Part shown: positions 2,394 to 30,806 of the stretch, one piece after another
Layout of the letters: every line of letters starts with the position of its first letter
How positions within the stretch are numbered: position 1 is the stretch's first letter
NCBI GenBank assembly: GCA_019237095.1
Contig: JAFAHT010000263.1
Coordinates: 1-33,325 of the forward strand
Direction: 5' to 3'
Source of the DNA: Planctomycetaceae bacterium
GTDB taxonomy: Bacteria > Planctomycetota > Planctomycetia > Isosphaerales > Isosphaeraceae
DNA: 33,325 nucleotides
Notes under the pieces: model-generated
The model's database searches: none
What the model was told of the DNA's origin: nothing
What the model saw: only the letters and a program-made list of their open reading frames with translations
Position numbers and translations under genes: made by a program

Positions 2394-2521
2394 GCCAGCA
2401 CACGTCGCTCTGGTTAGCTGGCCCTTTGAGGCAGTCTTGGGGCGTCGAGACAGGCCGATTGTTGCGTGTCCGGGTCGGAGGTCAAGGGCTCGAGCCTGGC
2501 CACCAAGGTGTGGTTGCGACC

Positions 2522-4294
2522 ATGAGTCAGGAGTTGATCGGCGAAAAGCTGGGTTCCTTCCGCCTCGAGGAGATCCTGGGCTCAGGCGCAATGGGTGTTG
2601 TCTTCCGCGCGACGCAAGAGACGACCGGGCGCCCAGCCGCCGTGAAGATCGTTCACGGTGAGCTCGCCCAGAAGGGTAAGGTCTTCGAGCGGTTCGAGCG
2701 CGAGGCAGAAATCCTCAAGCAGTTCCGGCATCCCAACATCGTTCGTTGCCTGGCCTGGGGTCGATTCAAGGGAACGTCCTACTTCGCGATGGAGTACGTG
2801 GAGGGCGTGACCCTGGAGTGCTTGCTCCAGGATCGAGGAGAGCTGCCCTGGCGCGAGGTCGTCGATCTGACGATCCAGCTTTGCGGTGCCCTTCAGTATG
2901 CTCATGACATGAGCGTGGTCCACCGGGACCTCAAGCCCTCGAACCTGATGATCACGGTCGACGGCAAACTCAAGCTCACGGATTTCGGGATCGCCAAGGA
3001 CCTGGAGCGAACCACGCAACTGACGGCGCCGGGGCGAACTCTGGGCACGGCGGCTTATATGGCCCCCGAGCAGATTCGCGGCACGCCCGCGGTCAGCCAC
3101 AAGACCGACCTGTACGCGCTTGGTGTGCTCATGTACCAGATGTTGACCGGGAAGACCCCGTTCGACGGCGCGTCGGCCGTGGTGCTCATGCACTGCCATA
3201 TCAACGAGGCTTCTCCGCGGCCCGGGGACAAGGTCGCAGAGCTGCCCAAGGAGTTAAACGAGCTAGTGGTCAAGCTGATGGCCAAGACGCCCGCCGATCG
3301 CCCGTGGGACGCGGCCGCCGTGGGGCATACTTTGAAGGAGCTGCGGGACAAGGCCGCGCGGGGACAAGCAATCCCCATGGTCTGGCCCGAGCCAGGCTCT
3401 CCCGAAGCGAATCTTCCCCGAGCCGGAATCGGCGAGCCGGCAGCGCGTCCGCGCAGGAAAGGCCGCAAGTCGGGCACGTTGTTCGGCATCAACAGCGGTT
3501 TCGCGACGCGCGATCCTGACGGCAGTGACCTCGGATCCCGCCTTCTCGGCCGGCCAGTCCTCGAATCAATCGGCCTGGCAGCCGCGCTCATCGCGATCGG
3601 CGGATTCATGGGTTACTGGCTTTGGCCCCCAAGCGCTGGGTATCTCTATCGCCAGGCCGAAGCACTGATGGCCTCGTCGCACCGCTCCGACTGGCTCACC
3701 GCCCAGGAAGAGTACCTCGACCCTCTCGATCACAAACACCCGGGCCACCCTTACTCGGAACAGGTGCAGAAATGGCGCGACCAGGTTCTGTTGGATGAGG
3801 CCGAGGGTCGGGCCAGGAACCTGAGCAGCCCGGTGAAGACCTCGTTTACCGAGCCCCACACCGATGGTGAACGACGGTACGTTTCGTTCGATACGCTGGC
3901 CACCAGGGCGGTTGCCGACGGAAACGACCCGCTGGCCCTCACCTACTGGAGGGAAATGGCCCGGCTGATCAAGCCGGACGACCGGGAGGAAAGGAAATGG
4001 CACCTCCTGGCGCTCAAGCGGGCCACCGAGCTGGAGGCGCAGATGCAAGAACGCCGGGCCTTCGTGATCGACCAGATCGCCCGCGCCGACGCGGCGATGT
4101 GGGCAGGGCGGCCCAACGAGTCGGTGGCGATCAGGGCCATGCTGATGGAGAAGTACAGCCAGTATACCGATCTGGCCGACCTGCTCGGACCTCCGCCCCA
4201 AACGCCGCGGTTTGCAACTGCTGCGCCGGGTGCTCACGTCTCCCCCGCTCATCCAGGTGAGACTCCGGCCCCGATGCCTCAGCCTTCTCCCTGA
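2522..4294 (+). CDS. membrane-anchored serine/threonine protein kinase (Hanks type)
   Basis: An N-terminal eukaryotic-like kinase domain covers residues 12-275. It has the glycine loop GSGAMGVV (20-27), the ATP-binding lysine K42, the catalytic loop HRDLKPSN (H134-D136), DFG at 154-156 and the APE-type motif MAPEQ. All catalytic residues are intact, so it should be active. A basic, proline-rich juxtamembrane stretch leads to a single transmembrane helix at about 348-367. The remaining 220 residues would be periplasmic. They look helical and charged, match no sensor family I recognise, and end in a Pro-rich tail. The start ATG 2522 lies right before the conserved kinase N-terminus. An in-frame TTG at 2426 would add 32 unlikely residues. 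The FHA protein at 29316-30806 is the kind of domain that reads phospho-threonine, but nothing here links the two directly. Confidence 0.93.
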   Translation: MSQELIGEKLGSFRLEEILGSGAMGVVFRATQETTGRPAAVKIVHGELAQKGKVFERFEREAEILKQFRHPNIVRCLAWGRFKGTSYFAMEYVEGVTLECLLQDRGELPWREVVDLTIQLCGALQYAHDMSVVHRDLKPSNLMITVDGKLKLTDFGIAKDLERTTQLTAPGRTLGTAAYMAPEQIRGTPAVSHKTDLYALGVLMYQMLTGKTPFDGASAVVLMHCHINEASPRPGDKVAELPKELNELVVKLMAKTPADRPWDAAAVGHTLKELRDKAARGQAIPMVWPEPGSPEANLPRAGIGEPAARPRRKGRKSGTLFGINSGFATRDPDGSDLGSRLLGRPVLESIGLAAALIAIGGFMGYWLWPPSAGYLYRQAEALMASSHRSDWLTAQEEYLDPLDHKHPGHPYSEQVQKWRDQVLLDEAEGRARNLSSPVKTSFTEPHTDGERRYVSFDTLATRAVADGNDPLALTYWREMARLIKPDDREERKWHLLALKRATELEAQMQERRAFVIDQIARADAAMWAGRPNESVAIRAMLMEKYSQYTDLADLLGPPPQTPRFATAAPGAHVSPAHPGETPAPMPQPSP

Positions 4295-6726: not shown

Positions 6727-7368
6727 ATGGGACGGGAAATGATTATAGCGAATTTTGCATGGTTTACGCGAGTTGGCGAACGTGGCGACCACGCACTGGA
6801 CGGGCTCGGCATCTGGCCCTGTCTGACCCGCGGCTTGCTCAAGGTTCAAGACGGCTCGATGACAACCTGCATTGAGGGCCCGGGCGAGAGTAGCGAGTTT
6901 GTACTTCGCCAGCCAGCGGTAGCTGACATCCCGGCACCACCGCGTTCGCCGTCTCCTTCACTTGCGCCCGAGTCCGACTCATTCAAGCCCGCTTACCGTC
7001 GCATCCTGGTGGTCGACGACAACATCGATGCCGCCAGAAGCCTGGCAAAGGTCTTGACGCTGCTTCACGGGCAGAGCGTGGAGGTCGCACTTGACGGCCC
7101 TTCGGCCCTCGAAAAGGCCGAAGCGTTCCGCCCCCAGATCGTCCTCCTGGATATTGGCCTGCCGGGAATGAGTGGTCACGAGGTGGCCGAGCAGTTACGC
7201 CGCAGGCCCTGGTTCAAGGGATGCCTGCTGGTCGCGGTCACCGGCTGGGGTCAAGAAAAGGACCGGGCGACATCACGTGCGGCGGGCTTCGACCACCACC
7301 TCGTCAAGCCATTGAATCAGGCGACGATCCAGAACCTGCTGGATGGCAATCTTCTACCTGATCACTGA
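6727..7368 (+). CDS. response-regulator receiver protein, apparent remnant of a hybrid histidine kinase
   Basis: Residues 91-210 form a CheY-like receiver with the acidic pair D97/D98, phospho-acceptor D142 in LLDIGLPGMSG, T172 and K194 (LVKP). All are intact, so it can in principle be phosphorylated. No DNA-binding or enzymatic output follows. The N-terminal 70 residues still resemble the end of an HATPase domain: GDHALDGLGI matches the usual DRSLDR..GGLGIGL, and EGPGESSEFVLRQPA matches the usual EGPGRGSEFVVRLPL. The G2 glycines are partly lost. The simplest reading is a hybrid kinase cut off at its 5' end, adjacent to an IS630 relic. The start is uncertain (ATG 6727, 6742 or 6859); none has a strong ribosome-binding site. 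It may now act as a free receiver, or be decaying. Confidence 0.75.
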   Translation: MGREMIIANFAWFTRVGERGDHALDGLGIWPCLTRGLLKVQDGSMTTCIEGPGESSEFVLRQPAVADIPAPPRSPSPSLAPESDSFKPAYRRILVVDDNIDAARSLAKVLTLLHGQSVEVALDGPSALEKAEAFRPQIVLLDIGLPGMSGHEVAEQLRRRPWFKGCLLVAVTGWGQEKDRATSRAAGFDHHLVKPLNQATIQNLLDGNLLPDH

Positions 7369-7736: not shown

Positions 7737-8234
7737 GTGAGACAGCGTCGGTTGATGGGTACAATCGTGGATCGCCCAGTCGCTAAAGTCCTGATCTTCG
7801 AGATCGGCGGGCAGCGCTACGGTTTGCCCGCTTCCGACGTCCGGGAGCTTGTGCGCGCGGTAGCGATCCTACCGCTGTCGCTGGAGTCGGCCTTCATCGA
7901 GGGCGTGTTCGACCTGCGCGGCACCGTCGTCCCGGTCGTTGATCTCCGCGCACGGCTTCGTCTTCCATCCAAGGCCGTGGAGCCCTCGGACCACCTGATC
8001 ATCATCGAGGCGGGGGCAGGCGGTCGGCCGCTCGCACTGCGTGTCGATCGAGCCCTTGACCTTGTCGTCCTGGATCCCGCCGCGTCCGAACAGGTCCAGG
8101 AGCTCATGTCTGGCTCGGGCGACGCCATTCTGGTGATGATGATGAGAGTGCCCAATGGGCTCGTGCCCTTGCTCGATCTCCGTTCGCTGATCGCCACGAC
8201 CCGGTCGGCCGCACTTCCCCTGGCCCTCGGGTAG
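7737..8234 (+). CDS. cheW: CheW-type scaffold protein (WspB-like position)
   Basis: A single CheW domain of 165 residues, an SH3-like scaffold that couples chemoreceptors to CheA in cytoplasmic arrays. The pattern VLIFEIGGQRYGLPASDVRELVRA at the start, followed by GVFDLRGTVVPVVDLRARL in the middle, is diagnostic. It is the first gene of a chemosensory operon running to 17019, with CheR 26 bases downstream. In the Wsp system one CheW also precedes the CheR-TPR gene. The start is uncertain: GTG 7737 overlaps the TGA of a nine-codon upstream ORF, while ATG 7755 gives MGTIVDRPVAKV and has no clear ribosome-binding site. Confidence 0.92.
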   Translation: MRQRRLMGTIVDRPVAKVLIFEIGGQRYGLPASDVRELVRAVAILPLSLESAFIEGVFDLRGTVVPVVDLRARLRLPSKAVEPSDHLIIIEAGAGGRPLALRVDRALDLVVLDPAASEQVQELMSGSGDAILVMMMRVPNGLVPLLDLRSLIATTRSAALPLALG

Positions 8235-8260: not shown

Positions 8261-9664
8261 ATGACCGTGACCCGGCATGTCTTTGATGAGCTGAGACAAT
8301 GGGTCGGGGCACGTACTGGGCTGACCCTCACGACCGATCGGTGTCCCAGCGTCGAGCTGGTGATCCGCCGCGCCATGGCGCGGACGGGATTGGACGACGA
8401 CGTGCTGGGGTATCGCCGCCTGCTCGAGACCGATGACGCAGCTTTGGACGACCTGCTCGCAGAACTGACCGTCGGTGAAACCTACTTCTTTCGCGAGCCC
8501 TCTCAATTTCAGTTCATTCGACACACGGTCCTGCCCGAGATCCGCCAGCGCAGAGGCCACGATCATGTCCTCCGTGCGTGGTGCGCCGGCTGCGCCTCCG
8601 GGGAAGAGGCCTACTCGCTGGCGATTCTGTTGCTTGAGGAGGGGCTGGTGGGACAGTGCCGTACGCTGGCGACTGATCTGTCGCGAGCGAGCCTGATCAA
8701 AGCACGGCGGGGCACCTATGGCGCCTGGTCGCTCCGCGGCGAGGGCGCCCTTGCGGCCCGCCCCTACCTGCACGGCCATGGCAACCACTACGTCGTCGAT
8801 GAGGTCGTGCGCCGGCTCGTCACTTTCGGCCACCTCAACCTGGCGCTGGACTTCGACTCCGCGTGCGCGACAAGTGTCTGGGGGATGGATTTGATCCTTT
8901 GTCGCAACGTTTTGATCTACTTCGACCCAAAGACGGTCCGGACCGTCGCGCGCCGGCTGTACGAGTCGCTTGCCGGCGGCGGGTGGCTGATCACGGCTTC
9001 CACCGATCCCCCGCTGGCGGGCGAGGCCCCCTTTGAGGTCGTGGCGACGGACCACGGTGTCTTCTACCGAAGCGGGGCATCGTCGGCCTCGCGGCCGATC
9101 GGCCCGGAGTCAGCGCGGCCGGAAATTGCGTGCGCAAGCAGTTCCGCGGCGCAGCGGGACACCGGAGGAACCCCAGCCGGGGCACCGGCGGGGCTCGCCG
9201 GGGGTGACGGCTCCCGCATCGGCGCTCGCGAGCGAGACATCGCCACCGACTGGACCGACACGGCGCTTCGGATTCGCGCGCTGGCTAACCAGGACGTGGC
9301 GGAGGCCGAGCGCGTCTGCGCCGCGGCGACGCAACGGCACCCGCTCTCAAGCGAGCTGCATTACCTGAGGGCCGTGCTTCTGCTGGATCTCGATCGAGAT
9401 GAAGAGGCAATCCAGGCCGCGCGGCGAGCGATCTACCTCGATCGGTCGCTCGCCATCGCCCATCTCACCGTGGCCTCGATCCTCCAGAATCGCGGGGACC
9501 GCGAGGGGGCGTGGCGCGCCTATCGCAATGCGCGCGACCTGTGCCGGGCTCGCCCGGCCGAAGAGATCGTTCCTCTCTCCGACGGCGAACCGGCTGGGCG
9601 GCTACTGGCCGCGGCCGAGACCCAGATGGCGCTGATCGAGGCCGCGAGAAGGAGCCACCGATGA
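8261..9664 (+). CDS. cheR: CheR-type chemoreceptor methyltransferase with C-terminal TPR (WspC-like)
   Basis: Residues 1-275 form a CheR domain, which methylates receptor glutamates using S-adenosyl-methionine. Visible motifs are TYFFREP (74-80), the SAM-binding WCAGCASGEEAYS (107-119) and DLILCRNVLIYFD (210-222). A low-complexity Ala/Gly/Pro-rich linker of about 55 residues follows. Residues about 330-440 look like tetratricopeptide repeats (for example LSSELHYLRAVLLLDLDRDE). CheR-TPR fusions are typical of Wsp-type and other alternative-function chemosensory systems; the TPR may recruit the enzyme to receptors or kinases. ATG 8261 has GGAAAAGGG upstream. The stop overlaps the next start (ATGA at 9661-9664), so translation is coupled to the second cheW. 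Confidence 0.92.
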   Translation: MTVTRHVFDELRQWVGARTGLTLTTDRCPSVELVIRRAMARTGLDDDVLGYRRLLETDDAALDDLLAELTVGETYFFREPSQFQFIRHTVLPEIRQRRGHDHVLRAWCAGCASGEEAYSLAILLLEEGLVGQCRTLATDLSRASLIKARRGTYGAWSLRGEGALAARPYLHGHGNHYVVDEVVRRLVTFGHLNLALDFDSACATSVWGMDLILCRNVLIYFDPKTVRTVARRLYESLAGGGWLITASTDPPLAGEAPFEVVATDHGVFYRSGASSASRPIGPESARPEIACASSSAAQRDTGGTPAGAPAGLAGGDGSRIGARERDIATDWTDTALRIRALANQDVAEAERVCAAATQRHPLSSELHYLRAVLLLDLDRDEEAIQAARRAIYLDRSLAIAHLTVASILQNRGDREGAWRAYRNARDLCRARPAEEIVPLSDGEPAGRLLAAAETQMALIEAARRSHR

Positions 9665-10290
9665 GTTTGATCCGCCGTCGAACCGGTCCGATCACGGATC
9701 GGCGGACGATTCGCGAACGCCTCGCACGGGCCGTGAACTTGATTTGCGAGGAGCATTCGACCCCCGATCAGGCCAGGGCCGTGCTGGAGGAGCGAGCCCG
9801 CGCGCTGGCGCGCGTCCCTGTCCAGCCGCCCCCCACCTCGCTGGTGCTCGATGTCGTGACCTTCGCGCTGGCCAACGAAGACTACGCGATCGAACTGGGC
9901 TATGTCCACAAGATCGTGCCGTTGATCGAATTGACACCGGTTCCCGGGGCCCCCGACTTCTTCGTCGGCGTCATCAACCTCCGCGGCGAGATCCTCCCCA
10001 TTGTCGACCTTCACAGGCTCTTCGGGATGGCTCGCACCGGCTGGACCGGCCAGTCCTGGGCGATCGTCCTCGGCGGCGAGCGCAACGAATTCGCCCTGCT
10101 GGCGGATAAGGTCCATGAAGTGATAACCTTGCGCACCGACCAGATGCTCGACTGGCAGGGATCGGCCACGGGCGTCGGCCGGCAATTTGTGCGCGGCGTG
10201 ACCGAGGGCGCCTTGATCGTGCTTGACGGCGCCGCCCTCCTCCAAGACGATCGCCTCTTCATTGACCAGGGCGATGGCGCAGGCGTCTGA
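9661..10290 (+). CDS. cheW: second CheW-type scaffold with N-terminal extension (WspD-like)
   Basis: A CheW domain (residues about 62-205) contains [22 protein letters not shown] and [20 protein letters not shown], the latter being the classical CheW core. An Arg-rich, helical N-terminal extension of about 60 residues precedes it, as in WspD. The start ATG 9661 overlaps the CheR stop by four bases and has GAAGGAG just upstream. A longer in-frame ORF beginning at 9511 lies antiphase inside cheR and is rejected. Having two CheW proteins on either side of CheR is the arrangement seen in Wsp operons. Each may couple a different array component, or the two may form a composite baseplate ring. Confidence 0.92.
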
Positions 10291-10306: not shown

Positions 10307-12013
10307 ATGGCCAAATCGTCGACTTCAAAGAAACCGGTGGTTAGCGCGACGTCCCCGAACAAGAACCCGTCTCCGAGGAGACGCAAGGGCGGCGACAAGG
10401 TGTTCAGGCGGAACGACGAGCGCTACCGCCTGTTCGTGGAGAGCGTCAAGGACTATGCGATCATGATGCTCGACCCCACCGGACACGTCCTCAGTTGGAA
10501 CCCCGGGGCAGAGCTATTGAAGGGGTACCATGCCGACGAGATCATCGGCAAGCACTTCTCGATCTTCTACCCGCGTGAAGACGTGGAGCACGGCAAGCCC
10601 GAGATGGAATTAAGGGTGGCGACGAATGAGAGCCGGTTTGAGGACGAGGGTTGGCGGGTGCGCAAGGATGGCTCTCGGTTCTGGGCCAACGTCGTCACCA
10701 CCGCTCTCCACAAGGATGCCGGAGTGCTCATAGGCTTTGCCAAGGTGATCCGCGACATGACCGAGCGAAGAGCGGGCGAGGATGCCCGCCGGGAGGCCGA
10801 GGAGCGGATGCGTTCGGTCGTCAACCATATCATTGACGGGATCATTACCATCGACGAGCGGGGGATCGTCGAATCGTTCAACCCGGCCGCCGAGAAGATC
10901 TTCGGCCACCCGTCTGTCAACGTCGTGGGCCGCAACGTCAAGATGCTTATGCCCGAGCCCTACCATAGCGAGCACGACGGCTATCTCACGAACTATTTGC
11001 GCACCCACCAGCCAAAGATCATCGGCATCGGCCGCGAGGTCGAGGGCTTGCGGAGCGATGGCTCGACCTTCCCCATGGAGCTCGCCGTCAGCGAATTTAA
11101 CCTCGCGGGGCGCCGCTTCTTCACCGGCATCGTTCGCGATATCACCCAGCGCAAGCAGTTGGAGGTCGAGAGGGCCAGGTATGTCGAGAACGTCAGCGAG
11201 GCGGTGTCTCGCCTGGCGTCCACCAGCACGGAGATTCTCGCAATCGCCCAGCAGCAGGCTGCCGGCGCCCAGGAGCAGGCGAGCGCCGTCGCCCAGACCG
11301 TGACCACCGTCGACCAGGTTGCTCAGACCGCCGCGCAGGCAGCGCAGCGAGCCAAGGGTGTCGGCGAGGCCGTTTCGCGCACCCAGGAGATCGGCCAGCG
11401 GGGCCGGCAGGCCGTCGACGACTCGATCGCCGCCCTGGAAAAACTCCAGGAACAGGTGGAGTCAACCGCCGAAAGCATCCTGATGTTGGCCGAACAAGCT
11501 CAGGCCATTGGCGAGATCATCGCCACCGTGAATGACATTGCCGAGCAAACCAACCTGCTCGCACTCAACGCCGCCATCGAGGCCTCCCGCGCCGGCGAGT
11601 ATGGGCGGGGCTTCACGGTGCTGGCCGGAGAGGTCAAGGCGTTGGCCAGCCAGAGCAAGAAGGCGACCACTCAGGTGCGGCAGATCCTGGGCGAGATCCA
11701 GAAGGCGACGAACACTGCGGTCTTGTCCACCGAAGAGGTGACCAAAGGAGTCAGCGTGACGACCGCGGTGGCGAGCCAGGCGGGCGGGACCATCAAGACC
11801 TTGACCGAGACCCTGACGGAGACGGCGCAGGCGGCGACGCAGATCATGGCATCGGCCGGCCAGCAGGCCACTGGAATGTCCCAGATTCATCAGGCGATGA
11901 AGAACCTCGACCAGGTGGCGCGACAGAATCTCGTGGCGATTCGCCAGGTCGAACAGGCGGCCCTGAGCTTGACCGCGCTCGGCAACCAACTCACCAGTCT
12001 CACACGGTCCTGA
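10307..12013 (+). CDS. soluble methyl-accepting chemoreceptor with two PAS domains, the second FixL-like
   Basis: The product is 568 residues with no transmembrane segment or HAMP, so it is cytoplasmic. PAS1 spans about 36-153. PAS2 spans about 163-281. The coiled-coil signalling domain spans about 290-568, with the receptor hairpin tip [19 protein letters not shown] at 413-431. PAS2 closely resembles the haem PAS of rhizobial Fix[14 protein letters not shown] then [12 protein letters not shown]. By my alignment H223 falls on the FixL haem-ligating His (H200 in B. japonicum) and R243 on the O2-contacting Arg (R220), whereas FixL R206 and H214 are Asn and Lys here. I infer possible haem-based O2 or NO sensing; this is not proven. 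ATG 10307 follows GGGGGG at six-base spacing. The C-terminus lacks the CheR-binding pentapeptide, which fits use of a TPR-linked CheR. Confidence 0.93.
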
Positions 12014-12026
12014 GAGGTCCGACGCC

Positions 12027-12566
12027 GTGGATAAGGCCAAGCTCATCACGCGGTTGATGAACACATTCCTCGACGAGCTCCAGGAGCACGTGCGCGTGCT
12101 GAACCGCGAGTCGCTGGCCCTGGAGAAAAACCCGGCCGAGGCCGAGCGGGCGAGGCGGCTCCAAGAGCTTCTCCGGACGGCGCATAGCCTGAAGGGAGCC
12201 GCGCGCTCGGTGGATATCTCGCTCATCGAGGATGCCTGCCACGGGCTCGAAGACCTGCTGGCCGGGGTACGGGACAATCGGGTGGCGTTCGATTCCGAGT
12301 TGTTTTCGCTGCTGTTTGCGACGGCCGACAGTCTTGAGGAGGCGGGATGCGCCTGCGGGAGCAGCGGGACCTCGCCGACTCGCCGCTCGGCGCGTTGCTG
12401 CCACGGCTCGAGGCCGCCGCGGGAATTCCTGCACTCCGGCCCTTCGAGCCGGCGCCGCGCCCTCTTGACGCAGGCGTTCCGCTTGCCGGTCGGGATGCAG
12501 GCGAGATGCCGGCGCCACAACGGCCGGCTCCCCAAAAGGCCGGCGAACTGCCGACGGTCCGCTTGA
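12027..12566 (+). CDS. cheA: CheA N-terminal Hpt (P1) part, frameshifted from the kinase
   Basis: Residues 1-107 form the CheA P1 phosphotransfer domain. The phosphorylated histidine is H53 in RTAHSLKGAARSV, followed by DACHGLEDLLAG. After about position 12345 this frame turns into an improbable Cys/Arg/Ser-rich tail up to the stop at 12566. The rest of CheA continues in the -1 frame from 12347. The GTG start at 12027 has GAGAGGT upstream and follows the receptor stop by 13 bases. If one base is missing near the GGG at 12344-12346, this and the next entry are one protein of about 817 residues. Otherwise it is a separate Hpt protein with a junk tail. Confidence 0.75.
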   Translation: MDKAKLITRLMNTFLDELQEHVRVLNRESLALEKNPAEAERARRLQELLRTAHSLKGAARSVDISLIEDACHGLEDLLAGVRDNRVAFDSELFSLLFATADSLEEAGCACGSSGTSPTRRSARCCHGSRPPREFLHSGPSSRRRALLTQAFRLPVGMQARCRRHNGRLPKRPANCRRSA

Positions 12567-14479
12567 CTCCGCCCGCGGAGCGCTCCGAGAGCGGCGGTGT
12601 CGTGCGACCAGGTGACCGCCCGCCCGAGCCGTCGGTGCAGCCCTCCGGGGCTTCGCGTCAGCCGCCGCCCGCCGCCCTGGCCCAACTGCCTCGCCCGGCG
12701 ATCGCGGGCTTCGTGCGCGTCCCGGCCGATAAGTTGGATGCACTCCTTACGTACAGCGGTGAGCTGCTCGTAGCACGGCGTCGAGTGGAGTCTCGGACGA
12801 GCGAGCTGGAGGCGATCCGCGAGTTCGTGGGGCGCTGGAAGACGGAACGGCGCCGTTTCGACAGGGCGCTGAGAACGCTCAAGCGGGCTGAGAACGGCGG
12901 TCGGAGCGGCCTACCCTCGAAAGCCGGGACCGGCGACGGGAGGTTGTTGCCCCGCCCCGCGGCGGTCGTGCTTGGTCAGATCGACGACAATCTGCGCCGC
13001 CTCGAGAAGGACCTGGAGCGTTTTGCCATGGTCCTGACGAGCGACGGCCGCCAGCTCGACCAGGTTGCCGACCTCCTCGACGACGCGGTGCGACGGCTGC
13101 GGATGCTGCCGTTCGCCGAGGCCTGCCAGGGCCTCGACCGGTTGGTGCGCGACCTGGCCCGGGCGAGCGGCAAAGAGGTCGTCCTTTTGGTCGAGGGGGG
13201 CCAGGTCGAGCTGGACCGGTCGATCCTCGAGGGTTTGCGAGACCCGCTGTACCATCTGGTCTGCAACGCCGTGGATCATGGCATCGAGACGCCCGACCAA
13301 CGCCAGGCCGCCGGCAAGCCCGCCCAGGGGCGGATCACGCTGAGGGCCGCGCTCCGCGGCACGCAGGTCGAAGTGGTGGTCGCGGACGACGGTCGGGGCC
13401 TCGACCTGGAGGCCGTGCGCCAGCAGGTGCGCCAGCAGGGGCTCGGCGAGCCCACCGACGAACGAGACCTGGTGTCTTGTATCTTCCTGCCCGGGTTCTC
13501 CACGGCCTCGCTGATCACCAGCGTCTCCGGCCGCGGGGTGGGGCTCGACGTGGTCAAAAGCCAGGTCGAATTGCTTCACGGCACCATCGACCTCTCGTTC
13601 ACCGCCGGGCAGGGGACGCGGTTCGCACTGGCTGTCCCCCTGACCCTGACCACCCTGCGGGCGCTCTTGGTCGAGGCAGGGGAGCAGATCTTCGCCTGGG
13701 CGAGCACCAACGTGCAGAGGTTGGTACGCATCGGCCCGCACGACATCCGAATGGTGGGGGGGCGGGAAATGCTCGTTAACGGCAAGTCGCTGTTGCCGAT
13801 GGCCTCACTGGCCGAGACGCTCGGCTTGCCGGCCGCCACGGCCGCCGGCGCGGGCGACAAGCGGCCAGGCCTGATCGTGGCCGCGGCGGAGCGGCGAATG
13901 GCCTTCGTGGTGGATGAGCTGATCGCCGAACAAGAGATCGTGGTCAAGGGCCTGGGGGACCGGATCCGGCGGGTCCGCAACTTTTCGGGAGCGACCATCC
14001 TCCCCTCAGGACGGATCGCGCTGGTCCTGAACGCGGCGGCCTTGATCCGCGCCGCAATGAGCCAGAGCGTCGGCCCGGCGCCGGCGCCCGTGCCGGCCAT
14101 GACGGGTTCGCTCGCGAAGAAGCGGCTGCTCGTGGTCGACGACTCCGTCACCACGCGTTCCCTGGAGAAGAGCATCCTGGAGGCGGCGGGGTACGAGGTT
14201 GTGACCGCGGCCGACGGCGAGGCCGGTTGGAAGCTCCTCCAGGAGCAAGACGTCGATCTCGTGATTACCGACATCGAGATGCCTCGGATGGACGGCTTCG
14301 AGTTGACCGAGGCAATTCGCCGCTCGAAACAGTCCCACGAGCTGCCGGTGATCTTGATCTCCGCGCGGTCCAGTGATCGGGACAAGGCTCGCGGAATTGA
14401 GGTCGGAGCGGACGCCTACATTGTCAAGAGCACCTTCGACCAGAAGGAGTTGCTCGAGGCCCTCGGGCAACTCCTCTAA
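12347..14479 (+). CDS. cheA: CheA histidine kinase core with C-terminal receiver (WspE-like)
   Basis: Without its P1 domain (previous entry) this frame encodes, in order: a Pro/Ala-rich linker; the P3 dimerisation helices starting FVRVPADKLDALLTYSGEL; the P4 ATPase with N box HLVCNAVDHGIETPDQR, G1 VADDGRGLD and G2 SGRGVGLDVVKSQV; a P5 CheW-like domain; and a receiver near residues 590-710 with LLVVDDS and TDIEMPRMDGFE. CheA fused to a receiver is typical of Wsp (WspE) and Frz-like systems, where the receiver acts as output or phosphate sink. Frame 2 has a TGA at 12335-12337, so it can only begin after that point. ATG 12347 has GAGGAGGCGGG just upstream, so internal initiation is possible, but a one-base loss in a G run is simpler. 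CheB follows 15 bases later. Confidence 0.88.
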   Translation: MRLREQRDLADSPLGALLPRLEAAAGIPALRPFEPAPRPLDAGVPLAGRDAGEMPAPQRPAPQKAGELPTVRLTPPAERSESGGVVRPGDRPPEPSVQPSGASRQPPPAALAQLPRPAIAGFVRVPADKLDALLTYSGELLVARRRVESRTSELEAIREFVGRWKTERRRFDRALRTLKRAENGGRSGLPSKAGTGDGRLLPRPAAVVLGQIDDNLRRLEKDLERFAMVLTSDGRQLDQVADLLDDAVRRLRMLPFAEACQGLDRLVRDLARASGKEVVLLVEGGQVELDRSILEGLRDPLYHLVCNAVDHGIETPDQRQAAGKPAQGRITLRAALRGTQVEVVVADDGRGLDLEAVRQQVRQQGLGEPTDERDLVSCIFLPGFSTASLITSVSGRGVGLDVVKSQVELLHGTIDLSFTAGQGTRFALAVPLTLTTLRALLVEAGEQIFAWASTNVQRLVRIGPHDIRMVGGREMLVNGKSLLPMASLAETLGLPAATAAGAGDKRPGLIVAAAERRMAFVVDELIAEQEIVVKGLGDRIRRVRNFSGATILPSGRIALVLNAAALIRAAMSQSVGPAPAPVPAMTGSLAKKRLLVVDDSVTTRSLEKSILEAAGYEVVTAADGEAGWKLLQEQDVDLVITDIEMPRMDGFELTEAIRRSKQSHELPVILISARSSDRDKARGIEVGADAYIVKSTFDQKELLEALGQLL

Positions 14480-14494
14480 AGGACAGGGGGAGCC

Positions 14495-15544
14495 ATGATC
14501 CGCGTCCTCGTTGTCGACGATTCGGCGACGGCCCGTACCCTGCTGACGTCGATCCTGGTCGCCGACCCCGCGATCCAGGTCGTCGGCGAGGCAAGGGACG
14601 GCCTCGAGGCGATCGCGCTGACGCAAAAGCTCCGACCCGACCTGGTCACCATGGACCTGCACATGCCCCGGTTGGATGGCCTGGAGGCGACCAAGGAGAT
14701 CATGATCACGGTGCCGACGCCGATCGTGATCGTCACCGGGACCACGCGTACCCGCGAGGTCAAGGATTCGCTTGACACCCTGCGGGTGGGCGCACTGGAG
14801 GTGGTAGTAAAACCTCCCGGGCCCAGGTCGCCCGGCTTCGTGGCGGCGGCCCAGCACCTGGTGGCGACCGTCAAAGCCCTGTCCCAGGTCAAGGTTGTGC
14901 GTCACTGGCGTCCCCCTTCCGTCCAGCCCGCCGGGCGGTCGACGCGGGCCCTCGTGCCCCCGGGCGCCGCCCGCAAGCGGATCGTGGCCATCGCGGCCTC
15001 CACCGGGGGACCGGCGGCGCTGCGGTTCCTGCTCTCCGGCCTCCCCGGCGATTTCGCCCTGCCGATCCTGATGGTCCAGCACATCACACCGGGCTTCGTC
15101 TCGGGGCTCGCGTCGTGGCTGGATTCCTCGAGCCCGCTCCGCGTGAAGCTGGCCGAACAAGGGGAGCCGCTCACCCCACGCACCGTCTTTCTCTCGCCCG
15201 ATCACCGTCACCTGGGCGCCTCCGGGCACGGGACGGTGGCGCTGTCGTCGTCACCCCCGATCGGCGGCTTTCGACCCTCGGGGACCTTTCTGTTCGAGTC
15301 GGTCGGCCGCGCCTTCGGCGCCGGGGCCGTGGCCGTGATCCTGACCGGAATGGGCGACGACGGCGTCGAGGGATTGCGGATGATCCGCCGGACGGGCGGC
15401 CAAGTCATCGCCCAGGATGAGACGACCTCGGTCATCTTCGGAATGCCCGGTGCCGCCATCGCGGCGGGCCTGGTCGATCTGGTCCAGCCGCTCCCGGCCA
15501 TCACTCAATACTTGGCCGCGCTCGGCGGTAGCGGCATTTCCTGA
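14495..15544 (+). CDS. cheB: CheB chemoreceptor methylesterase/deamidase (WspF-like)
   Basis: An N-terminal receiver (residues 1-125: D8/D9, phospho-acceptor D54, K106) is joined by a short Pro-rich linker to the CheB methylesterase domain (about 160-345). The Ser-His-Asp catalytic residues are visible: S169 in ASTGG, H196 in VQHITPGF and an Asp in TGMGDDG (288-289). It removes methyl groups from receptor glutamates when phosphorylated by CheA, opposing the CheR at 8261. ATG 14495 is preceded by GGGGGAG. The 17-base gap to the next gene, with TAGGAG, places both in the same operon. In Wsp the equivalent WspF sits directly before the output protein WspR. Confidence 0.95.
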   Translation: MIRVLVVDDSATARTLLTSILVADPAIQVVGEARDGLEAIALTQKLRPDLVTMDLHMPRLDGLEATKEIMITVPTPIVIVTGTTRTREVKDSLDTLRVGALEVVVKPPGPRSPGFVAAAQHLVATVKALSQVKVVRHWRPPSVQPAGRSTRALVPPGAARKRIVAIAASTGGPAALRFLLSGLPGDFALPILMVQHITPGFVSGLASWLDSSSPLRVKLAEQGEPLTPRTVFLSPDHRHLGASGHGTVALSSSPPIGGFRPSGTFLFESVGRAFGAGAVAVILTGMGDDGVEGLRMIRRTGGQVIAQDETTSVIFGMPGAAIAAGLVDLVQPLPAITQYLAALGGSGIS

Positions 15545-15561: not shown

Positions 15562-17019
15562 ATGCCTCGCGTGCTCATCGTCGAAGACAGCCCTACCCAG
15601 GCCCAACAACTCGCCCTGATCCTCGAGGATGCGCGCTTCGAGGTGGCGATCGCCCCCGACGCCGAGCGCGGCTTCGAGCTCCTCACCAATGACCGATTCG
15701 ATCTCGTGCTCAGCGATCTCCTGCTCCCCGGGGACAGCGGCTTCGACCTCTGCAAACGGATCAAGGCGGACCCCCGCCTCCGCCGCATCCCGGTGGTGGT
15801 CTGCACCAGCCAGGCCGAGCCCTTCAACGTCCTGCGCGGCCTTCAGGCCGGGGCCGATGGCTTCATCACCAAGAATCGCGATCCGGAGGAGATCGCCGGC
15901 TGCGTCCACCGGGCGCTGGCCCGGCCGCCGACCACCGAGTCCACCACTCCGATCTCGGTCGTCTTCCTGGGCCAGGAGTTCCGGCTGCCGGCGGGAAGGG
16001 AGCAACTCCTGGATATCCTCGCATCGGCCTTCGAGGACGTGGTCCACCTCAATGCTCAGTATCAGACCAGCCTGCGACAATTGGGTGAGCGCAACCGCCA
16101 GTTGCAGGCGCTCGCGGACTCGGAGCGACAGGCTCACGAGGAGTTGAAGCGAGCTCACGAGGAGTTGAAGCGAGCCGAGAGCCAGTTGGTCCAAGCCGAG
16201 AAACTCTCGTCCCTGGGCCGGATGGTGGCTGGAGTCGCCCACGAGATCAATAATCCCCTGGCGTTCGTCGTCAACAATGTCGCCGTCCTGCGGCGCGACC
16301 TCGGTCACGTAATCGAGCTGCTTCACCTCTACCGCCAGGCCGACTCGATTCTGGCCGAGCACGATCCCGCTCTGCTCGAGCGTGTCGACGCGGCCGCTGC
16401 CGAGGGCGACTTGGCCTACGTCCTGGAGAACCTGGGGAGCCTCGTTGACCGCTCCGGCGAGGGGTTGAAACGGATTCAGCGGATTATCCTCGATCTCCGC
16501 AACTTCGCCCGCCTGGACGAGTCCGAGCGCAAGGAAGTGGACTTGAACGAAGGGATCAGAACCACGGCCTTCCTGATCGACGGGCGAGCGAAGGCGCAGG
16601 GAGTGGAGCTGGTGTTGGACTTCACTCCCTTGAAGCCGGTGACGTGTTATCCGGCCCAGATCAACCAGGTTGTGCTCAACCTTCTGAACAACGCCCTCGA
16701 CGCCTGCCCCGACGGGGGAAAGGTGACCGTCGGCACCCGACTCACCCCGCGTGAGGTCGAGATCCACGTCGTCGACACCGGCCCGGGAATCGAGCCGTCG
16801 ATCCGCGATAAGATCTTCGACCCGTTTTTCACAACCAAGCCGGTCGGTAGTGGGACGGGGCTGGGGCTGTCGATCAGCTACGGGATCGTCCAGGCACACG
16901 GGGGCCGGATCGACCTCGACTCGTCTCCCGGCCGCGGGGCTCATTTTATCGTCCGCCTGCCCCAGGATTTCCCACCGGGCGGGGCCGGTTCCGACGAGTC
17001 GTCGAGCGCCGGCCTTTGA
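15562..17019 (+). CDS. receiver-histidine kinase, predicted output of the chemosensory operon
   Basis: Residues 1-120 are a receiver (E8/D9, phospho-acceptor D52 in [12 protein letters not shown]104). A coiled coil at about 160-215 leads to a HisKA/HATPase kinase with H227 in [14 protein letters not shown] box [16 protein letters not shown]1 [10 protein letters not shown] box IFDPFFTT and G2 GSGTGLGLS. The receiver-first order means an upstream kinase, presumably CheA, could control this kinase. It occupies the place where Wsp operons encode the diguanylate cyclase WspR. Its own target is not in the operon; the NtrC-type regulator at 19263-20690 is the nearest candidate. The coiled coil contains a perfect tandem duplication of a seven-residue unit, [10 protein letters not shown] 15562 has TAGGAG at eight bases. 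Confidence 0.93.
16132..16173 (+). repeat. perfect tandem 21-bp repeat (two copies) inside the kinase gene
   Basis: Positions 16132-16152 and 16153-16173 are identical and each encodes AHEELKR, one heptad of the coiled coil linking receiver and kinase. Identical codons point to a recent duplication. Adding or losing a unit keeps both the frame and the heptad register. Confidence 0.9.
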
Positions 17020-19262: not shown

Positions 19263-20690
19263 TTATTCCGCGGCCATTGCAAATCGCTTGCGGTCGCGCA
19301 TCGACGGCTTGAAGTCGCTCTTGTCGATCTGATAGCGACGGAGCTTCTCACTGATGCTCCGGCGCGACAGGCCGCAATGCAAGGCGCAGCGGTCGATCCG
19401 TCCCCGGTATTTCTCCAGCACCCGGATCAGGTAGGCGCGCTCGATGCGCCGGATGAACTCGTCGGTCAGGTCCTGAAGAGGCCGGTTGTGGTCGAAGTCG
19501 AGGCTGAACGGCTCCTCGCGCAGCGGCACGATTTGGGGAGGAAGGTTGTCCGGCTCGATCACCGGCCCTGGGGTCGTGACGACCGCCTGCTCGATGATGT
19601 GCTCGAGCTCGCGGACATTACCCGGCCAGTCGTAGCGGAGCATTCGTGACAGTGTTTCCCGGGCCACACTCTTGGCAGGCAAGCCGCGCTCCATCAGCTT
19701 GTCGAGGAAGTGGTTCACCAGGAGGGGCACGTCCTCAAGCCGCTCACGCAGCGGCGGAAGGTCGATCGACACGACGTTCAGCCGGTAGTACAGGTCCTCA
19801 CGGAACCGGTTTTCGGCGACAGCTTGGGCGAGGTTCAGGTTCGTGGCGGCGATCACCCGGCAATCAGCCTTGATCGGCTCGCCACCGCCGACCCGCTCGA
19901 AGCGTTGATCCTGGAGCACCCGCAGGAGCTTGGCCTGCATGCCCAGAGGCAAGTCGCCGATCTCGTCGAGAAAGAGCGTCCCGCCGTTGGCGAGCTCGAA
20001 CCGGCCTTTTTTTTGCCGATCAGCACCCGTGAACGCCCCCCGCTCGTGCCCGAACAGCTCGCTCTCCATCAGGTGCTCGGGAAGCGCCGCGCAGTTGACG
20101 ATCTCGAGCTTGCCGCTCCGCGTGACATCGCTGAAGTGGATGGCCTGGGCGACCAGCTCCTTGCCGGTCCCGGTCTCGCCGGTGACCAGAACCGTGCATT
20201 TCGACGAGGCGACCCGCTCAACCCGGGCGAATACCTCCATCATCCGGCGGCTGCGGCCCAGCAAGTTATGGTAGGCGTTCCGCCGGCGAAGCCGGTTCCG
20301 CAGGTCGGCGACTTCGTCAACCAGGCGGCGATCCTCCAGGGCCTTGTGGACGAGCAACTCCAGCCGCAGGGTGTCGATCGGCTTCTGGATGAAGTCGTAG
20401 GCGCCCAGCTTCATCGCATCGACAGCCGCCTCCACGGTGGCATAGGCCGTCATGACAATGACTGTGACGGGCAAGTCGCGGTCGCGGATCGCCTGGATCA
20501 GGTCCAGGCCGCTGATACCCGGTAGCCGCAAATCCGTCAGGACCAACGAATACGGACGCTCCACCAGCCACTCCAGCGCGGTCGTGCCCTCATGAGCCAC
20601 GCTGATCTCGCGACCGGGAGTATTCAGCAGTTGTGAAAGCTGCTGCCCGATAAGCTCGCTGTCATCCACCACGAGGATGCGTCGATCCAT
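19263..20690 (-). CDS. NtrC-family sigma-54-dependent response regulator
   Basis: The 475-residue product has the classical three-part layout. The receiver spans 1-120 with D9/D10, phospho-acceptor D53 in LTDLRLPGISG and K103. The AAA+ sigma-54 interaction domain spans about 142-370 with Walker A GETGTGKE (171-178), the GAFTGA loop (218-223) that contacts sigma-54, and Walker B LFLDEIGD (239-246). A C-terminal Fis-type helix-turn-helix follows (CALHCGLSRRSISEKLRRYQI). All key residues are present. ATG 20690 follows GAGGG; the longer frame up to 20942 is non-conserved. No kinase partner is adjacent. The receiver-kinase at 15562-17019 is the nearest candidate, and a sigma-54-like promoter lies at 17095. 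Confidence 0.95.
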   Translation of the reverse strand: MDRRILVVDDSELIGQQLSQLLNTPGREISVAHEGTTALEWLVERPYSLVLTDLRLPGISGLDLIQAIRDRDLPVTVIVMTAYATVEAAVDAMKLGAYDFIQKPIDTLRLELLVHKALEDRRLVDEVADLRNRLRRRNAYHNLLGRSRRMMEVFARVERVASSKCTVLVTGETGTGKELVAQAIHFSDVTRSGKLEIVNCAALPEHLMESELFGHERGAFTGADRQKKGRFELANGGTLFLDEIGDLPLGMQAKLLRVLQDQRFERVGGGEPIKADCRVIAATNLNLAQAVAENRFREDLYYRLNVVSIDLPPLRERLEDVPLLVNHFLDKLMERGLPAKSVARETLSRMLRYDWPGNVRELEHIIEQAVVTTPGPVIEPDNLPPQIVPLREEPFSLDFDHNRPLQDLTDEFIRRIERAYLIRVLEKYRGRIDRCALHCGLSRRSISEKLRRYQIDKSDFKPSMRDRKRFAMAAE

Positions 20691-21166
20691 GGCGCCCTCA
20701 TCCAGGTTGAGGTGGGTGGGCACGACCCTGGGTCCAACTTCGATTGAGCGACCGCAGTCCAAAGAGTCCTGCTCAGAAGTCCATTTTCTCAATCGTGCTA
20801 GCCTACGGAGAATTCTCTGGCTGTCAAGCCGGATCGCGCTCTTTGCCCTGATCCAAGCTGGTGGCGCTCTCAAAGAGGCGAGCCAAGACATGCGGCCCGA
20901 CTCGTTCACTGGCCATGCGCGCAGGCGTGCGTGCAGTCCCAACTCGGTATGGACTTGGCGGCCGATTCGCTGTCAACTTGGCGCGCCGCGAACGAAGCTT
21001 CGGGCTGAACGATTTGAGCCGGGCGGACGGAATGCCGATGAGGATGAGTACGATGGAAGGGATTGCGCTCGTTCTGCCGGCGCTGCCGGCCGATCGAGTG
21101 CGTCAGTCGTGGAGCGTTGTGACGTAGGTTTCCGGGTAGCCTGCACTGGCGATTAAGGAGAGGCTC
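20691..21166. other. intergenic region between divergent regulator and secreted thioredoxin-fold gene
   Basis: These 476 bases carry no believable gene. Besides the minus-strand promoter at 20800-20827, the plus strand has TTGGCGGCCGATTCGC at 20955-20970. It keeps the GG-N10-GC of sigma-54 promoters but misses several flanking consensus bases, and it lies almost 200 bases from ATG 21167. It is a weak candidate only. Confidence 0.4.
20800..20827 (-). promoter_or_regulatory. promoter candidate with internal palindrome upstream of the NtrC-type regulator
   Basis: On the minus strand a perfect -35 TTGACA (20827-20822) is followed after 16 bases by TAGGCT (20805-20800), a weak -10. The spacer holds a perfect ten-base palindrome GAGAATTCTC (20808-20817), placed where a repressor would block RNA polymerase. 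The regulator start is 110 bases downstream. Confidence 0.4.
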
Positions 21167-28894: not shown

Positions 28895-29315
28895 GTGACA
28901 GACCCTTTCGTGGCAAGAAGCCGGACAGAGTCAGAACAGGGAGGCGGCCCCCCGCCAACCCTGGGCTTGTTCCTATTGAGGGGATGGTACTCCGCGGGAA
29001 GTGCCGGGTCAAAGGGGACGGTCAGATCACCTCGCTGAGTGCCTGAGTGTGGCTGGTGCTGCCGGCCCGGCCGGGCGCTGCGGCGCCCACGTCACCAGGC
29101 CGGCCGGCCACGGGCCGCCGGATGCACTGATTGATTCTACGCCGCTTCCGGACCTAGGACAAACCGACAAGGCAGGCTAACATCATGGCTTGCGAAACCA
29201 AGGCCGGCATGGTCGAATTGTGGCTTGTGAATCCTGATTGGACAGATGGGGGCCTTTCCGCCGTCTGAGCCGGCGATTCGGCCTGCCCCTTTTCTTGCGA
29301 AGATTGCTCTCGACC
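28895..29315. other. intergenic region between divergent genes with a GC-rich hairpin
   Basis: No gene is seen in these 421 bases. At 29053-29098 there is a nested inverted repeat. Outer arms CTGGTG (29053-29058) and CACCAG (29093-29098) enclose a CCGGCCCGGCCGG palindromic run and an inner hairpin GGGCGC (29073-29078), TGCG, GCGCCC (29083-29088). It could be a structured RNA, an operator or simply GC-rich extragenic DNA. An in-frame TTG at 29238 before the FHA gene is not considered the start. Confidence 0.4.
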
Positions 29316-30806
29316 ATGCCTGAGTCCGCGCTTGAGTTATTCCGTGATGCTTGCGGCTTGCGTGCCCCTCTGGCACTTGAATTCCAGGATGCGAGCCGGA
29401 CGATTGAGGGGTTTGACACCCATCAACTCGACTGCCCATTCGCACTCATTGGCCGAGATCCCCGGTCGGACGTGGTTCTCCACGGAGCAGAGGTCAGCCG
29501 GCGTCACGCGTTCTTCCAGGTCGTCGAGGGGCGAATTTTCTGCATCGATCTGAACAGCCGGACCCAGCTCTATTGGGAGGAAGAGACCGAACAACGAACT
29601 CACGGTTGGCTTGATCCCGGATGCACGGTTTGGATTGGTCCGTACGGGATTCGCCAGGCGGGGACTGATCTGTCACTGAACCACGCCACACAATGTCCGG
29701 ATCCTTTGGCCTTCTGTGCGAGCGACACTACGGACGCGCACCAGCTTCCCCGGGCGGGACTGGTTTTGCCAATCCGAATCGGCGCGGGAGATCAACTCTG
29801 GCGGATGGATAGCCGGATCGCCTTGGTCGGACGCTCCGAGTCGTGCCAGATCATGCTTCGTGATGAGAGCGTTTCGCGATTCCATGCCTCGTTGCTGCGT
29901 ACCTCGAAGGGAGTGTGGATCGTTGATTTACAGGCACGCGAGGGGGTTGTGGTCAACGGAGTGAGAGTGAAGTGGGCCTGGCTCGAGGACGGCGACACAG
30001 TGGGAATCGGACGGTTCACGTTCATCCTTCGCTACGAGACCGTGCCCGAACAGATAAGCCGTCGGGATGTGCCACTCGAAGCCGGGGCGAACCCGACATT
30101 CTCGAGCGGGGCAGCTCATTCCGGCAAGGGCGGGACGTCGCTGGCGGTTCGATCCAGCAGTCGTCCAGCGACACCTGCTCGGGTCGTGGAATCATCCCGC
30201 GCCCTGGCACCCGACGTGCTCGTTCCCGAACGAGCTGCGCAATGGGAGCAGGCCATCGCAGTACCCCCTCAGCAGCTTGCCATGTGGCAGCAGCAGATGC
30301 AGATGATGGAGTCTTTTCATCAAGACATGATTCTCATGGTGCAAATGTTCGTGGCGATGCACCAGGAACATCGTGTCACGATTCGCGATGAACTCGACCG
30401 GGTTCAGAAGCTCACAAAGAAGTTGAGTGTCCTGCAAGAGAAACTGACGCAGACCGCGGGATCGGCCGAGCAGAGTCGCTCCCCTGGGGCTCAGCGGCCA
30501 GAGAAAAATGTCGGAAAACCCGATCGCTCGGGTCGCAACGACATAGCTCGAGCTCAAGACGTCAAGGCACCCAACAACACTCAATGCAGCAAGAACCAGC
30601 CAGCTCAGCCGCCCGACCCGATTCGCCCTTCCGGAGCTGGTAACCCGATATCAACCAGCACCGATCACACCAGAGAAGACGTAAGATCTCCAGCGACACC
30701 CGCCGGCCACGCCGAGTTCCATTCTCAGCTTGCCCGACGGATCACGGAACTCCAGCGCAAGCGGCAGAGCTACTGGCAGAAAATCCTGAGCGCCATCAAT
30801 AAGTAA
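29316..30806 (+). CDS. tandem FHA-domain protein with C-terminal coiled coil
   Basis: The product is 496 residues, without signal peptide or membrane helix. FHA domain 1 covers about 42-118 with G46-R47 and SRRH (61-64). FHA domain 2 covers about 168-240 with G172-R173, SRFH (187-190) and N214-G215. Both keep the Arg, Ser and His/Asn positions that hold phospho-threonine. A Gln/Met-rich coiled coil (about 308-385: QQLAMWQQQMQMMESFHQDM) and a Ser/Pro/Gln-rich disordered region follow. A short basic helix closes the protein. It probably acts as a phospho-dependent adaptor for Ser/Thr kinases such as the one at 2522-4294; the pairing is an inference. ATG 29316 is chosen from the domain boundary; its ribosome-binding site is weak. 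Confidence 0.85.
   Translation: MPESALELFRDACGLRAPLALEFQDASRTIEGFDTHQLDCPFALIGRDPRSDVVLHGAEVSRRHAFFQVVEGRIFCIDLNSRTQLYWEEETEQRTHGWLDPGCTVWIGPYGIRQAGTDLSLNHATQCPDPLAFCASDTTDAHQLPRAGLVLPIRIGAGDQLWRMDSRIALVGRSESCQIMLRDESVSRFHASLLRTSKGVWIVDLQAREGVVVNGVRVKWAWLEDGDTVGIGRFTFILRYETVPEQISRRDVPLEAGANPTFSSGAAHSGKGGTSLAVRSSSRPATPARVVESSRALAPDVLVPERAAQWEQAIAVPPQQLAMWQQQMQMMESFHQDMILMVQMFVAMHQEHRVTIRDELDRVQKLTKKLSVLQEKLTQTAGSAEQSRSPGAQRPEKNVGKPDRSGRNDIARAQDVKAPNNTQCSKNQPAQPPDPIRPSGAGNPISTSTDHTREDVRSPATPAGHAEFHSQLARRITELQRKRQSYWQKILSAINK

Follow-up and report, generated by a model that had tools for sequence, protein, structure and literature searches.

Sequence comparison and modelling indicate an exchanged FixL-type PAS domain in a soluble planctomycete chemoreceptor

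The window analysed here, a stretch of 33,325 nucleotides from a Planctomycetaceae bacterium of the lineage Isosphaeraceae, Planctomycetota (contig JAFAHT010000263.1 of assembly GCA_019237095.1, 5.6 Mb in 603 contigs), encodes a chemoreceptor with two PAS domains. An initial annotation proposed that the second domain, PAS2, keeps the haem-ligand histidine and the distal arginine of FixL. This would make the receptor a cytoplasmic sensor of O2 or NO in a Wsp-like array. Two questions are raised by this locus: whether PAS2 is a FixL-type domain, and how such a domain came to stand in a receptor of this kind. The receptor and its parts are as follows.

10307 to 12013, plus strand: soluble chemoreceptor, 568 amino acids, PAS1-PAS2-MCP signalling domain (ATG start, frame, Pfam; no transmembrane segment)
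10457 to 10774, plus strand: PAS1, residues 51-156 (Pfam; retained in the orthologue of genome G006, 63.5% identity over residues 1-159)
10793 to 11149, plus strand: PAS2, residues 163-281, FixL-type by sequence and fold model; the stretch that differs from the G006 orthologue
10973 to 10975, plus strand: codon of H223, at the site of the FixL haem ligand H200 (motif position, model superposition)
10991 to 10993, plus strand: codon of N229, at the site of FixL R206 (alignment)
11015 to 11017, plus strand: codon of K237, at the site of FixL H214 (alignment)
11033 to 11035, plus strand: codon of R243, at the site of the O2-contacting FixL arginine R220 (motif position, model superposition)
11138 to 11239, plus strand: linker helix from DIT to EIL, with a 30-residue spacing alike in the window, G006 and G346 receptors (motif spacing)
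11372 to 11917, plus strand: MCP signalling domain, residues 356-537 (Pfam MCPsignal, 8.8e-37)

The receptor combines PAS domains with an MCP signalling domain, and a hydropathy script found zero transmembrane segments in it. It is thus predicted to be soluble, which agrees with the cytoplasmic location first proposed. Its output domain is MCPsignal (Pfam), without the histidine-kinase output domain of FixL.

Numbered from the ATG at 10307, H223 in SEHDGY and R243 in GIGREVEG stand exactly where they had been placed, and the interval 10793-11149 corresponds to PAS2, in frame. The underlying alignment to B. japonicum FixL proved sound, as phmmer aligns PAS2 with this protein ungapped over 117 residues. 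When the sequences of the PDB were searched with phmmer, seven distinct FixL sequences came on top (E from 1.3e-33 to 8.5e-31) and DosP next, at about 1e-13. Since FixL sequences lead the list with DosP far behind, the match is not a chance one. PAS2 is 48-49% identical to the FixL proteins of B. japonicum and S. meliloti.

Structure prediction, suggested at the outset as a check, gave a model that lies gap-free on FixL, pairing H223 with H200 and R243 with R220. According to VIA-align, residues 15 to 118 of the model superimpose on residues 154 to 257 of the FixL chain 2vv6 (104 residues, 0.8 A, Z 21.4), placing model residue 61 (H223) on FixL 200 and model residue 81 (R243) on FixL 220. A fold search with the model had FixL at its head, and the FixL entries within ranks 1-13 gave Z of 19.8-21.4 and rmsd of 0.7-2.1 A. 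The model was built from 63 rows and has a mean pLDDT of 85.8; its weak block, residues 71-80 with a mean pLDDT of 68, is the FG-loop region, which adjoins the haem in FixL. Both the sequence and the predicted fold support the assignment of PAS2 as a FixL-type haem-PAS domain.

Further positions that we take to belong to the FixL pocket are identical or conservatively replaced in PAS2 (Y226, Y230, I238, I241, M257, L259, V261, F272 and G274). The sites of FixL R206 and H214, which are presumably propionate contacts, carry Asn229 and Lys237, as had been read from the sequence. Among 138 distinct close relatives of PAS2, a set retrieved partly by PAS2-derived sequence patterns and thus biased towards similar sequences, the histidine is present in 134 and the arginine in 136, while Asn at the R206 site (78) and Lys at the H214 site (92) are the commonest residues there. 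The idea that N229 and K237 betray the loss of the pocket was considered and rejected, as they are what the family most often has at those sites. A FAD- or FMN-type PAS2 was also ruled out. Trp and Cys are given as the marks of these PAS families in the relevant part of a published PAS survey (PMC10468136), and both marks are missing in PAS2, which contains no Trp and no Cys.

A domain that resembles FixL could still work without haem, by binding another small ligand or by serving only in dimerisation or in the relay of a signal from PAS1, which could be the true sensor. The portion of the same survey that describes the cluster shared by FixL and DosP reports that about 40% of it is without the histidine and may respond to other signals, and that the PAS-A domain of human PASK, which lies beside it, binds non-haem compounds (PMC10468136). 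Moreover, N229 and K237 are unlike both rhizobial FixL proteins, and of the two PAS domains it is PAS1 that has been retained in the G006 orthologue. However, H223 and R243 are both kept in PAS2, its predicted fold is that of FixL within 0.6-0.9 A, and Asn and Lys are the commonest residues among the very relatives that keep the histidine. We find a non-haem PAS2 distinctly unlikely, and we proceed with PAS2 as a FixL-type haem-PAS domain.

The two residues are not surprising in themselves. Of 145 domains scoring at least 100, 132 have both histidine and arginine, 5 the histidine only, 4 the arginine only and 4 neither (Fisher p 4e-4 for co-occurrence, relatedness ignored). In the FixL/DosP cluster, as far as the survey details it, the histidine occurs in more than 9700 sequences, or 60%, mainly in kinases and cyclases (PMC10468136). 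Because the pair is nearly universal in relatives and histidine-bearing domains number in the thousands, H223 and R243 are an ordinary mark of family membership.

Neither is the combination of a haem-PAS domain with a soluble chemoreceptor new. The initial annotation knew of no description of it, but such receptors are already published, namely IcpB and Aer2 (PMC13401364, PMC10851874, in the sections that introduce them). PAS and MCPsignal occur in one protein in 3165 of 8075 genomes, according to the figures of one genomic survey (PMC6194562). IcpB of Azorhizobium caulinodans, which we compared by description only, is likewise cytoplasmic with an N-terminal haem-binding PAS; it differs in being presented, in its account, as a receptor for aerotaxis whose domain make-up is relatively simple (PMC13401364). 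Aer2 of P. aeruginosa and V. cholerae is introduced there as an O2-sensing haem-PAS chemoreceptor (PMC13401364). However, its PAS is assigned in the survey to a different cluster, with the haem histidine at an E-helix position (PMC10468136), whereas the PAS2 histidine lies at the helix F position of FixL. The PAS of Aer2 is also flanked by HAMP domains. BdlA and McpS of P. aeruginosa share the order of two PAS domains followed by an MCP domain, but their PAS domains are stated to be predicted FAD binders (PMC8694187). FixL itself shares with the window receptor the fold, the histidine, the arginine and a tandem of PAS domains with the haem-type one second (8js5, whose title refers to dimeric PAS domains of FixL). 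The differences are its histidine-kinase output in place of an MCP domain and an array, and R206 and H214 in place of N229 and K237.

What is unusual is the apparent origin of PAS2 by exchange, not the haem motif. Among 59 relatives, there is one full-length orthologue of the receptor, encoded by G006, a genome placed in the same family as the window. Identity between the two receptors is 65% over residues 1-150, drops to 23% over residues 163-275 and rises to 83% over residues 277-568. The G006 receptor also has a second PAS domain in that place, of a different kind: a FixL-type HMM gives 182 bits to the window PAS2 and 30 and 26 bits to the two PAS domains of G006. The nearest relatives of PAS2, at 73% identity, are PAS domains in a betaproteobacterial and an armatimonadete protein, the proteins having 986 and 1067 amino acids, and a same-genus kinase with the architecture PAS-PAS-HisKA-HATPase-REC carries a PAS domain 72% identical to it. 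In the PAS tree, the window PAS2 joins two of its three nearest relatives (95/81), while in the MCP tree the window pairs with G006 (100/99). PAS2 and the MCP part thus have different histories, which points to module exchange. These sequence data indicate that, relative to G006, PAS2 is a module exchanged at the borders between PAS1 and PAS2 and between PAS2 and the linker; the direction of the exchange is one that we infer. A donor within the same assembly was not found, as the whole-receptor search gave PAS-region matches of 24-38% only, in a genome of which 8% may be missing. The open-licence literature searched yielded no account of an exchange of FixL-type PAS modules inside an ACF receptor family, nor of such a PAS in a planctomycete ACF receptor.

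The ACF assignment comes from the operon around the receptor, which has the following genes.

7737 to 8234, plus strand: CheW 1 (Pfam CheW, 1.3e-23; syntenic in related operons)
8261 to 9664, plus strand: CheR with a TPR region, an ACF marker (Pfam CheR, 5.6e-40; TPR_16, 1.3e-5, 26 bits, below the 32.7 cut-off)
9661 to 10290, plus strand: CheW 2, start approximate (Pfam CheW, 7.8e-29)
12027 to 12566, plus strand: N-terminal Hpt part of CheA, in a separate frame (Pfam Hpt, 6e-14; frames compared with G006)
12347 to 14479, plus strand: remaining CheA, with dimerisation, ATPase, CheW-like and receiver domains, in another frame (Pfam)
14495 to 15544, plus strand: CheB (Pfam CheB_methylest, 2.3e-54, and REC)
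15562 to 17019, plus strand: REC-HisKA-HATPase hybrid, the probable output (Pfam; syntenic in G006 and G016)

The array had been called Wsp-like. This holds for CheR-TPR, the two CheW proteins, CheA with a receiver and CheB, but not for the regulator, which is a REC-HisKA-HATPase protein; Pfam gave no GGDEF match among the window proteins scanned. REC-HK regulators together with CheR-TPR are named as a mark of ACF arrays in the part of the classification that treats them (PMC3447774). The same source places Wsp, with WspC as its CheR-TPR, in the ACF class and describes WspR as a REC-GGDEF fusion (PMC3447774), unlike the regulator found here; the window receptor also differs in being soluble. 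A multidomain response regulator and a CheR-TPR are both found in the window, the TPR match lying below its curated cut-off, and the gene content fits the ACF class, which is wider than Wsp. The order CheW-CheR-CheW-receptor-CheA-CheB is kept in G006, G016, G004 and L050-L053 and, more distantly, in G022 and G003. Synteny was examined for L038-L048, L050-L053, L055, L066, L074 and L171, leaving out L208 and L210-L222; in L040, L043 and L044 the full operon is absent from the available stretch. No match to flagellin (Flagellin_N) was obtained in the assembly, which is 92% complete, by a search that was positive in 4 of 14 control genomes. A role of the array other than flagellar motility is in line with this.

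Other signalling genes lie near the array. A stand-alone receiver precedes it (6727-7368), 46% identical to the C-terminal receiver of the same-genus kinase (L047) with a nearly identical type of PAS2. Downstream, on the minus strand, a response regulator with a sigma-54 activation domain (19263-20942) is a possible transcription output. A serine/threonine kinase and an FHA-domain protein (2426-4294 and 29238-30806) flank the array at a distance.

The cheA gene changes frame near 12.34 kb, its Hpt histidine region and the remainder each being open. Either an error of assembly or a true defect may lie behind this, and the array may be broken in this contig. In the latter case the entire array could be decaying or non-functional, the retained pocket reflecting recent history only. 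The copies of G006 and G016, each in a single frame against two in the window, speak for such decay. However, the remaining operon genes are all open and full length, and the contig belongs to a fragmented 603-contig assembly. One-base errors are common in fragmented assemblies. We judge decay of the locus very improbable.

Taking the array as functional, we propose that the window encodes a cytoplasmic ACF receptor with an exchanged FixL-type PAS2 that binds haem b via H223 and a gas, O2 in the first place, at R243, with a kinase as output. We give this reading as a whole about two chances in three. Haem, gas, signalling route and output are what we infer in it. PAS2 would most likely bind haem b through H223. 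A diatomic gas, O2 first, would bind at the haem iron and engage R243, and the FG loop would shift by analogy with FixL. The movement of PAS2 would then pass through the DIT motif and the linker helix of fixed length to the MCP hairpin, which would alter CheA activity. From CheA the phosphoryl group would go to its own receiver, to CheB and to the REC-HisKA-HATPase protein, so that the signal would not be directed onto a motor.

For the gas, another reading has to be weighed: PAS2 might bind haem but signal NO, CO, the redox state or the supply of haem instead of O2. FixL haem domains have been solved with NO, CO and CN besides O2, as structure titles state, and the distal and propionate-side residues of PAS2 differ from those of FixL, which may shift the ligand preference. 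On the other hand, R243 is kept, and its FixL counterpart is described, where the distal site is discussed, as stabilising bound O2 (PMC4263535). A signal other than O2 seems to us rather unlikely, and O2 is kept as the first candidate.

The receptor family gives a frame for the exchange. We compared 30 receptors, those of the window, G006, G016 (2), G004 (2), G023, G022, G003, L050 (2), L051, L052, L053/L207 (as one), L055, G346, L208 and L210-L222. The truncated receptor of G030 was dropped, as were weaker homologues, L028, L029, L033, L048, L137 and L138 among them. At least one transmembrane segment is predicted in 28 of the 30, the window and G006 receptors having none. Recognised sensors across the family are CHASE3, PilJ, 4HB, dCache, CHASE, NIT and Tll0287-like domains. 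This array family usually listens at the membrane. The window receptor probably senses oxygen, or a gas like it, within the cell.

A FixL-type PAS is found in two of the 30, the window receptor and that of G346 (L171:8687-11221:-). The latter belongs to the same operon type and has its FixL-type PAS, with histidine and arginine, before the MCP helices. FixL is its best PDB match (2e-32). It differs from the window receptor, which is soluble, in being membrane-anchored, with a weak dCache match, a HAMP domain and a single PAS. This PAS is 51% identical to PAS2 and branches elsewhere. Neither the PAS tree, in which many of the inner branches are weak, nor the MCP tree makes G346 the sister of the window. 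From these comparisons, the FixL-type PAS domains of the two receptors were apparently acquired separately. The spacing from DI(T/S) to (T/S)EIL is 30 residues in the window, G006 and G346. A query spanning PAS2 and MCP was run against four sets of genomes, from planctomycetes (392), the class of G445 (385), the class of G446 (321) and the phylum of G447 (297), scoring the best 6-8 candidates per genome, so that chimeras may be missed. Among the loci examined, rows spanning the query proved to contain an MCP domain only in the window and G346. In the classes of G445 and G446 the matches end by query residue 166, and in the phylum of G447 there were zero matches among the best 6-8 candidates of each genome.

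Other members of the family carry sensors worth recording. The homologous receptor L212:751-2334:+ (G304) has a Tll0287-like domain (1.9e-33) and is another possible haem sensor, the Tll0287 fold being known from a c-type haem protein. NIT (nitrate/nitrite sensing) domains occur in the homologous receptors L218, L219 and L222, a hint that the array family reads respiratory cues. Two tandem CHASE3 receptors lie within one operon of the array type in L050:5200-8325:+.

It is tempting to go further, with odds that we put somewhat short of even, and to propose that this ACF array family has an exchange socket in the stretch that immediately precedes the MCP helices. A FixL-type haem-PAS would have entered it on at least two occasions at a fixed linker length, in the G346 membrane receptor and, after loss of the membrane part, in the window receptor. 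An array devoted to cues at the surface or in the periplasm would thereby have been re-tasked to a gas within the cell, its output being a kinase, not a motor or a cyclase.

If PAS2 binds haem, the window, G006 and G346 receptors would be natural chimeras, in which one signalling region is joined to different PAS modules. From such chimeras one could learn how a single MCP helix bundle, behind a single linker, reads sensors that differ. Haem binding by PAS2 would also mean that a planctomycete with no flagellin match in its assembly senses gas directly through an array.
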